DNA from: an uncultured Pseudothermotoga sp.
GTDB lineage: Bacteria; Thermotogota; Thermotogae; Thermotogales; DSM-5069
Direction of reading: 5' to 3'
Assembly: GCA_937995655.1 (NCBI GenBank)
Contig: CALKJI010000010.1
Location: 62,001 to 126,000 of the forward strand
DNA length: 64,000 bases
This document shows, piece by piece, positions 31,597 through 39,209 of this stretch. Both the position numbers and the translations under genes were made by a program. Position 1 is the stretch's first letter. Every line of letters starts with the position of its first letter. The notes under the pieces were generated by a model. The model was given only the letters and a program-made list of their open reading frames with translations, had not been told where the DNA came from and did no database searches.

Positions 31597-31673
<77 letters not shown>

Positions 31674-31712
31674 ACGCATATATCTTCAAGAAATCATTTT
31701 TATATTTCAATC

Positions 31713-31800
31713 TGGTGCCGGGGATCGGACTCGAACCGACACGGAGGCTCCCTCCAGCGGATTTTAAGTCCGCAGCGTCTGCCTATTCCGCCACCCCGGC
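31713..31800 (-). tRNA. tRNA-Leu (TAA)
   Basis: An 88-nt class II tRNA with the long variable arm typical of leucine, acceptor GCCGGGG/CCCCGGC, anticodon loop CTTAAAA (anticodon TAA, reading UUA/UUG) and T loop GTTCGAGTC; CCA is encoded. It is first in the tRNA pair. Confidence 0.96.
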
Positions 31801-36917: not shown

Positions 36918-36950
36918 CCATAGAAAGTATAATAGAAACGAGGTGAGAAA

Positions 36951-37244
36951 ATGAAGATCAGATTTGGAAACATTGCAGATGCAATGGTAGGTGTTAAGGA
37001 GTTAGAAGTACAAGAGCATGATTTGAAAAGGATCTTCGAGCTCGTTTCTCAAATGCTGAAGAAACGTGTTGAACTTGTCGTGGACGAAAAGGAAGAGAGT
37101 GTATATCTGCTCACTGAAAGGGATGGCAAGCTTGTGAGAAATTGGGTAGTTGCACTGTGTGACGGTGTAAATATACTCGACTGTGATCTGAGTCATCTTA
37201 GGGGTTCACAAATAACGATTTTTGTCCCAGTGAGTGGTGGATAA
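36951..37244 (+). CDS. MoaD/ThiS-like ubiquitin-fold sulfur carrier
   Basis: A 97-residue protein beginning MKIRFGNIADAM and ending QITIFVPVSGG. The VPVSGG end, with two glycines directly before the stop, is the MoaD/ThiS-type tail which an E1-like enzyme adenylates and converts to a thiocarboxylate. The remaining chain is beta-grasp-like by length and strand pattern. GAGGTGAG precedes the ATG. One base downstream starts a ThiF/MoeB-like gene, its likely partner. No molybdopterin, thiamine or tRNA thiolation genes adjoin, so the sulfur acceptor is unknown. Confidence 0.78.
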   Translation: MKIRFGNIADAMVGVKELEVQEHDLKRIFELVSQMLKKRVELVVDEKEESVYLLTERDGKLVRNWVVALCDGVNILDCDLSHLRGSQITIFVPVSGG

Positions 37245-37245
37245 G

Positions 37246-37902
37246 ATGTTTGAAAGACATAGCCAGTTGCTAAAAGAATGTATGGATAAGATCTTTTCTG
37301 CAAAGGTACTTGTTGCTGGCGCCGGAGGACTTGGATGTACAGTCCTGTCACTACTCGTAAGGTTGGGTGTGGGTACCATATACTTGGTAGATAGTGCTGA
37401 GGTTGACGAACCAGACCTCAACAGGCAGATTTTGTACGACTTAGAAAGTATAGGGAGACAAAAAGTAAAAGCGGCGTGTGAAAAACTCAAAAAGATAAAT
37501 CCCTCATGCAATTTGGTTTCAATTTATGAATTCATAGATGAAAACTTTCCTATGCCAAAGGTTGATGCTGTGGTTGATTGTCTTGACAGTTTCAAGTCAA
37601 AATTGACCTTAGATAGGCTTTGTCAAGAAAATTCAGTACCGCTTGTTCACGCTGGTGTTCAAGGATTTGTTGGCCAGGCTACGACGATTTTGTATGGTAG
37701 AACTCCCACTCTCAACCAATTATTCAAAAAAACTCTAGACCAAAGAGCTTTGCAAATCTTTCCACCCTTGGTAGTTCTGATGGCTTCGATACAAGCAACT
37801 GAGGTGATCAAACTTATCTGTGGAGAAAATGAATCGCTGGTTGGCAAAATGCTGCTGGTTGATCTGTTGAATAATCGCTTTGAAACAGTGAAAATAATAT
37901 AA
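37246..37902 (+). CDS. ThiF/MoeB/HesA-type E1-like adenylyltransferase
   Basis: A 218-residue E1-like enzyme with the nucleotide loop LVAGAGGLGCTVLS, the EPDLNRQILY arginine-finger block, lysine in RQKVKAACEKL and aspartate in VDCLDSF. It should activate the C-terminal glycine of the preceding MoaD-like protein. It lacks the two CxxC pairs that bind zinc in MoeB and ThiF: the expected region reads RTPTLNQLFKKTLDQR. It is therefore a shortened, zinc-free form. ATG 37246 is chosen, 1 bp after the MoaD-like stop, with GGTGGAT upstream. Confidence 0.87.
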   Translation: MFERHSQLLKECMDKIFSAKVLVAGAGGLGCTVLSLLVRLGVGTIYLVDSAEVDEPDLNRQILYDLESIGRQKVKAACEKLKKINPSCNLVSIYEFIDENFPMPKVDAVVDCLDSFKSKLTLDRLCQENSVPLVHAGVQGFVGQATTILYGRTPTLNQLFKKTLDQRALQIFPPLVVLMASIQATEVIKLICGENESLVGKMLLVDLLNNRFETVKII

Positions 37903-38661: not shown

Positions 38662-39209
38662 GAAGAGCCTGGATTAAAGCATTGGTTCTGGATAAGGTTC
38701 ATAATTCTCCCGTCGTAATACTGGGAATCGAAGGTACAAACAAGGTGGTACCGATCTGGATAGGAGCCTGTGAAGCAAATGCTCTCGCGATAAGTCTTGA
38801 GGGTCTTAACTTTCCAAGACCACTGACTCACGATTTGATCGTGAACATTCTTGAAGCACTCGATGCACGTCTCGAGAAAGCGATCATCCATTCTGTAAAA
38901 GATAACGTTTACTATGCAACACTTGTGATAAGGGACCTAACCTATGTAGAAGGTGAAGAAGAGGAAGGTTCGGACGAACATGCTCTGATCGAAATGGATG
39001 CAAGGCCATCGGATTCAATAGTCCTTGCTGTGAAAAAAGGGATACCACTCTACGTGAGTAATGAAATAGTAGAAGAGCATGCGATTGACTTGAAGATTCC
39101 TGAAGATACGTCGGACGAAGATTTCAAAAAATTTGTTGAAAATTTGGACATAGATAAATTCAGACAGATGCTCAGAGATGAGCCCCACGACCAAGAAGAT
39201 GAGGAATGA
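38658..39209 (+). CDS. bifunctional nuclease (BFN/DUF151) domain protein
   Basis: A 183-residue DUF151 protein like T. maritima TM0160. The N-terminal strands hold WIKALVLDKVHNSPVVILG, PIWIGACEANALAI and, later, DARPSDSIVLAVKKGIPLYV, the family signature; an acidic tail follows (about 140-183), with EDFKKFVENL resembling a UVR-type helix. Plant homologues cut DNA and RNA; bacterial function is uncertain. It overlaps plsC by 4 bp and the prenyl synthase gene. Confidence 0.88.
   Translation: MRRAWIKALVLDKVHNSPVVILGIEGTNKVVPIWIGACEANALAISLEGLNFPRPLTHDLIVNILEALDARLEKAIIHSVKDNVYYATLVIRDLTYVEGEEEEGSDEHALIEMDARPSDSIVLAVKKGIPLYVSNEIVEEHAIDLKIPEDTSDEDFKKFVENLDIDKFRQMLRDEPHDQEDEE

Follow-up and report, generated by a model that had tools for sequence, protein, structure and literature searches.

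Nearly every molybdenum or tungsten enzyme requires molybdopterin, which the textbook pathway makes with MoaD and MoaE. A function for the tungsten cofactor of AOR has been predicted for an AOR-linked MoaD-MoeB cluster (Iyer, Burroughs and Aravind 2006, PMC1779556). In Thermococcus kodakarensis, UblB (TK2118), encoded in an operon with the E1 TK2117, was found to be required for tungstopterin in a Gly-Gly-dependent manner (PMC11323500). Acetogens make molybdopterin without a MoaE gene (PMC5039349), and the nitrate-respiring Geobacter metallireducens has no MoaE gene, while mosC genes are listed for it (PMC2700814). In T. thermarum, the genome paper described AOR and genes for molybdopterin, but moaD and moaE could not be identified (PMC4148951).

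We examined a two-gene unit in the window, a 64,000-nucleotide stretch of a Pseudothermotoga genome. Two open reading frames were confirmed on the plus strand: a 97-aa carrier at 36951-37244 and a 218-aa E1 at 37246-37902. The carrier ends in TIFVPVSGG followed by a TAA stop, and one base further on is the E1 ATG at 37246, which agrees with the initial annotation of a carrier ending VPVSGG with the two glycines as final codons and a ThiF/MoeB-like gene one base past its stop. A putative -10 element, TATAAT, lies upstream of the pair at 36928-36933 (plus strand); with TTTATA at a spacing of 18 it matches the consensus at 10 of 12 positions, a match that alone is no sign of function. A Shine-Dalgarno-like GAGGTG is at 36940-36945 (plus strand), probably serving the carrier gene. 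The GGTGG that encodes the final glycines of the carrier (37236-37240, plus strand) ends 5 bases upstream of the E1 start and is a putative Shine-Dalgarno sequence for the E1; judging from the sequence, the two genes may be translationally coupled through it. Elsewhere in the window, genes for tRNA-Met(CAT) and tRNA-Leu(TAA) were seen on the minus strand at 31597-31800. If read from its first ATG, the polyprenyl synthase frame shares approximately 30 bases with the end of the bifunctional-nuclease-domain gene (39178-39209).

Cofactor genes had been described as absent near the pair, and they are: the sole MoaC, MoeA, and AOR matches are on contigs C2, C11, and C7, and the window is on C10. The pair had also been called stand-alone, which is right for the local neighborhood but wrong genome-wide, as two AORs, MoaA, MoaC, MogA, two MoeA, and MOSC lie elsewhere. 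Lipid and isoprenoid genes follow the pair solely in the family to which the window belongs; in Thermosipho-like genomes the pair is located elsewhere. We therefore rejected these neighbors as functional partners, and their adjacency is lineage-specific synteny. In five Thermosipho-like loci from two genera (L028-L031 and L035), the pair is near genes that by eye resemble hydF and aspartate ammonia-lyase. Between lineages, the neighborhoods of the 18 pairs found in the Thermotogota have nothing but the pair in common.

A Pfam search of the carrier returned no family above cut-off, ThiS (PF02597) included, and querying the PDB by carrier sequence alone gave nothing useful. Matches to SAMP1 and moaD_arch were weak (E 0.007 and 0.015) and below the model cut-offs; the moaD_arch score was 15.8 bits against a cut-off of 49.5, and the curated NCBIfam MoaD models were not reached. 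Because sequence searches of Pfam and PDB did not recognize the carrier, comparison of folds and profiles was needed. The AF2 model (pLDDT 94.3) had a beta-grasp fold, and the first 19 Foldseek matches in the PDB were all of the SAMP1/MoaD/Urm1 type (best E 4e-3). When the carrier profile was aligned by hhalign with MoaD proteins encoded after AOR genes in Marinitoga- and Kosmotoga-like genomes, the match was full length (probability 96.4, E 1e-9). The carrier was present, adjoining an E1, in 18 of 103 Thermotogota genomes, and Gly-Gly are the last residues of the carrier and of every complete relative. Compared to the nearest relative, dN/dS was approximately 0.04 for the carrier and 0.07 for the E1, with dS saturated. 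The carrier frame is therefore not a chance one, given its recurrence, its adjacency to an E1, its Gly-Gly ends, and its low dN/dS. Taken together with the fold and profile matches, these data identify it as a MoaD-type beta-grasp sulfur carrier.

The E1 matched PF00899 at 2e-54 and is the only ThiF-family gene in the window genome. It retains the GAGGLG nucleotide loop (GxGxxG), the Arg60 of NRQ, Lys73, and Asp114, as determined by alignment to a Uba1-type E1. Its AF2 model (pLDDT 93.2) matched ThiF/MoeB structures over the whole length by Foldseek (E about 1e-20). Fold and adenylation residues are shared with E. coli MoeB-MoaD (PDB 1JW9) and ThiF-ThiS (1ZUD), at a Foldseek E of about 5e-20. 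Unlike these, the window E1 lacks the two CxxC zinc-ligand pairs, as the initial annotation had noted and the alignment established, and no MoaE partner was found in the genome. The members of the AOR-linked clade likewise lack the pairs at the zinc positions. The gene at 37246-37902 encodes a zinc-free ThiF/MoeB-type E1 adenylyltransferase without a rhodanese domain.

For comparison, 80 E1 loci were obtained from a scan of GTDB species genomes. In the resulting tree, a branch with SH-aLRT 100 separated the bacterial zinc-free E1s from most of the CxxC E1s; the CxxC side also holds a few archaeal E1s, including that of Thermococcus, without one or both CxxC pairs. All Thermotogales pairs and all AOR-linked E1s were on the zinc-free side, where the usual gene order is AOR, MoaD (ending FPPxGGG), and E1. 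A zinc-free E1 lies directly 3' of AOR-MoaD in WOR-3, Hydrothermota, Bacteroidales, Planctomycetota, Spirochaetota, Marinitoga, Mesoaciditoga, and Thermosulfurimonas, and in some AOR-MoaD-E1 genomes the E1 is followed by a tungsten radical-SAM maturase (TIGR04317). An AOR was close by at 17 of 32 zinc-free bacterial loci compared to 1 of 37 CxxC loci (p 2e-6, kinship ignored). The window pair resembles the published AOR-linked cluster (PMC1779556) in having a MoaD-type carrier with an adjacent MoeB-type E1, and its E1 falls in a clade common to the AOR-linked E1s found here. It differs in that it lies away from AOR (C10, with the AORs on C7), the divergence of the carrier puts it beyond recognition by Pfam ThiS, the terminus is VPVSGG and not FPPxGGG, and MoaE was not found. 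Under the best explanation, the two genes form an AOR-type MoaD/E1 unit and became separated from the AOR gene. Like UblB-TK2117 of T. kodakarensis, which is needed for the tungsten cofactor, it is a two-gene MoaD-E1 unit, and a Thermococcus relative of the E1 (L241) is also without CxxC and also follows a Gly-Gly carrier. In contrast to the window E1, the Thermococcus E1 is on the opposite side of the tree, and the genome of that Thermococcus (G135) has an ordinary MoaE.

The window genome (2.11 Mb, 99.86% complete) encodes MoaA, MoaC, MogA, and MoeA of the standard pathway. A moaA-moaC-MOSC cluster is on contig C2, with MoaA above the NCBIfam cut-off, moeA-mogA-moeA is on C11, and the two AORs are on C7. 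A PF02597 search recognized no second MoaD; the sole match in the genome, C5:42038-42115, was below cut-off and was rejected as MoaD, appearing by eye to be an S4-like RNA-binding domain. Among Thermotogales, the whole pair was present in 13 of 14 MoaC-bearing genomes (Fisher p 1e-6), and in the 14th, a fragmented draft (G062), part of an E1 is seen where a contig ends. With a single ThiF, no second MoaD, the pathway genes, and this co-occurrence, the best reading is that the pair performs the MoaD/MoeB step of tungstopterin synthesis. We consider it likely that the two proteins take the places of MoaD and MoeB in this pathway; the basis is fold, Gly-Gly terminus, E1 family and residues, clade, co-occurrence, and pathway inventory, from which we infer the chemistry, sulfur donor, and substrate. 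Using ATP, the E1 would adenylate the glycine at the carrier C-terminus, and sulfur, whose source is probably a cysteine desulfurase or sulfide, would convert the acyl-adenylate to a thiocarboxylate. The carrier would then give its sulfur to the cyclic pyranopterin monophosphate from MoaA/MoaC, forming the molybdopterin dithiolene, and MogA and MoeA would insert tungsten for the two AORs. A sulfur-transfer module for tungstopterin was among the options raised at the outset and is well supported; the genome has no other recognizable MoaD. The pair would in this way fill the moaD (and moeB) half of the gap in the published Thermotogota genome.

Against the MoaD/MoeB reading is that MoaE was not found. 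The initial annotation had held that a full molybdopterin set with no other MoaD would make this the ordinary pair and had named moaA, moaC, and moaE among the genes to look for. The first two were found and moaE was not, leaving the set nearly full. This argues that the pair is the functional MoaD/MoeB pair, in a gene set that is not ordinary because MoaE was not found. Acetogens (PMC5039349) and G. metallireducens (PMC2700814), which belong to different phyla, likewise have MoaD/MoeB or their equivalents but no MoaE gene.

An ordinary MoaD/MoeB pair whose MoaE is present in the genome, yet too diverged for recognition, is the strongest of the alternatives and is nevertheless rather unlikely. 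The MoaE family can drift, since divergent MoaE proteins occur in other genomes with zinc-free E1s (Desulfurella, Thermodesulfatator, GBS-1). However, PF02391 detected MoaE in 0 of 103 Thermotogota genomes, 36 of them MoaC-bearing, although it was positive in 11 of 14 control genomes. A profile built from six divergent MoaE proteins gave chance-level matches in the window genome, none at E<=1, and in the tungsten-cofactor island of another genome (G049) no MoaE-sized gene was left unassigned except MOSC. MoaE was found in 1 of 12 MoaC-bearing AOR-MoaD-E1 genomes from the E1 scan, two of which are Thermotogota records also counted in the phylum set, and that one was divergent, compared to 7 of 7 MoaC-bearing genomes with CxxC E1s (p 1.6e-4). 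Short divergent MoaE proteins of approximately 120-130 aa without the usual WKKE tail were seen at L250, L251, L252, L253, L254, and L256, in Desulfurella, Thermodesulfatator, GBS-1, Methylomirabilis, Aminicenantes, and Desulfobacterales. An ORF of approximately 136 aa after the E1 in WOR-3 clusters was dropped as a MoaE candidate; its odd composition led us to suspect a spurious ORF.

The gene after moaC in the window genome, at C2:129767-130237, encodes a small MOSC protein. MOSC was detected at the tool threshold in 33 of 36 MoaC-bearing Thermotogota and in the remaining 3 by tblastn beside moaC, so that it lies beside or is fused to MoaC in all 36, and it was absent from all 14 MoaC-less Thermotogota tested. 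Outside the phylum, MOSC was present in 9 of 9 tested genomes with MoaC and without MoaE compared to 3 of 13 with both (p 4.6e-4), in counts that sample genomes via the E1, ignore kinship, and pool MOSC subtypes; two further outside genomes with MoaC and without MoaE have MoaC-MOSC fusions. Fusions to MoaC occur in WOR-3, Hydrothermota, and Methylomirabilis, and fusions to MogA in Bacteroidales and Phycisphaerae; the MoaC/MOSC architecture is named by NCBIfam PRK14499. MoaC-MOSC fusions were located at L310:3841-4698, L319:5846-6754, L320:5349-6203, and L321:5595-6449 in Hydrothermota, Methylomirabilis, and WOR-3, mostly without MoaE. Some MOSC protein was also present in 7 of 11 MoaE-bearing control genomes, a divergent MoaE accompanies the MoaC-MOSC fusion in the Methylomirabilis genome, a MOSC gene is close to MoaE in one genome (G141), and the MOSC cysteine is not invariant. 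No account of a MOSC protein taking the place of MoaE turned up in the literature searched. By association, the small MoaC-linked MOSC protein is the best candidate found for a MoaE substitute. Tentatively, and with the balance of probability against it, the Thermotogota and other AOR-MoaD-E1 bacteria could possess a MoaE-less molybdopterin synthase with the small MOSC as its catalytic half and the carrier pair as its sulfur half. If so, the pair would be the sulfur-supplying half of a second kind of molybdopterin synthase. A recognizable MoaE is missing in acetogens, G. metallireducens, and all searched Thermotogota, and the combination of a two-gene carrier module and a single candidate replacement gene makes the question of MoaE replacement directly testable.

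Also against the MoaD/MoeB reading are four genomes with the pair and without detected MoaC (G078, G079, G082, and G098), a fused pair in G078, broken pairs in G077 and G080, and the distance from AOR in this lineage. G098 (94% complete, 230 contigs) has the pair and MoeA, and its lack of MoaC may be an assembly gap. In G079 and G082 the pair is intact, and MoaC, MoeA, MOSC, and AOR all went undetected, as they did in G078. In G078, carrier and E1 form one 317-aa frame (L034, 7983-8936) through an extra base in a G run, which could be a sequencing error: GGTGGTGGATAATG of G079 reads GGTGGGGGGATAATG in G078, so that the stop is lost and Gly-Gly no longer forms a free end of the carrier. When G078 was compared with G079, the nonsynonymous share in the E1 was 0.35 compared to 0.76 expected, which looks like purifying selection and hints at either another role or a very recent loss. 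Retention of the pair in MoaC-less Thermosipho-like genomes reflects either recent, repeated loss of the pathway or a second job there.

That the pair serves another sulfur transfer or protein tagging (tRNA 2-thiouridine or SAMP-like conjugation), alone or additionally, we regard as improbable. The intact pairs in G079 and G082, the selection on the E1, and the weak similarity of the carrier to SAMP1 are consistent with such a role; in addition, several carriers may share one E1, a proposal made for TK2117, and conjugation of Ubls also occurs in Thermococcus (PMC11323500). In contrast, co-occurrence with MoaC in Thermotogales is near-complete, the E1 is closely akin to AOR-linked E1s, and the pair is broken in the MoaC-less relatives G077 and G080. 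The tRNA-sulfur and protein-tagging options of the initial annotation found no evidence in their favor, although either could be an additional role. A ThiS/ThiF-type pair for thiamine or cysteine is the least credible reading by far. ThiF and MoeB are close homologs and the NCBIfam scores were similar, but the phyletic link is to MoaC and to AOR-type E1s, the 18 neighborhoods share only the pair between lineages, and the E1 has no rhodanese domain. A longer ThiF-family protein (approximately 355-400 aa; family f9), in some cases beside a ThiS-like gene, occurs in G019-G034, mostly without MoaC, and is a different system.
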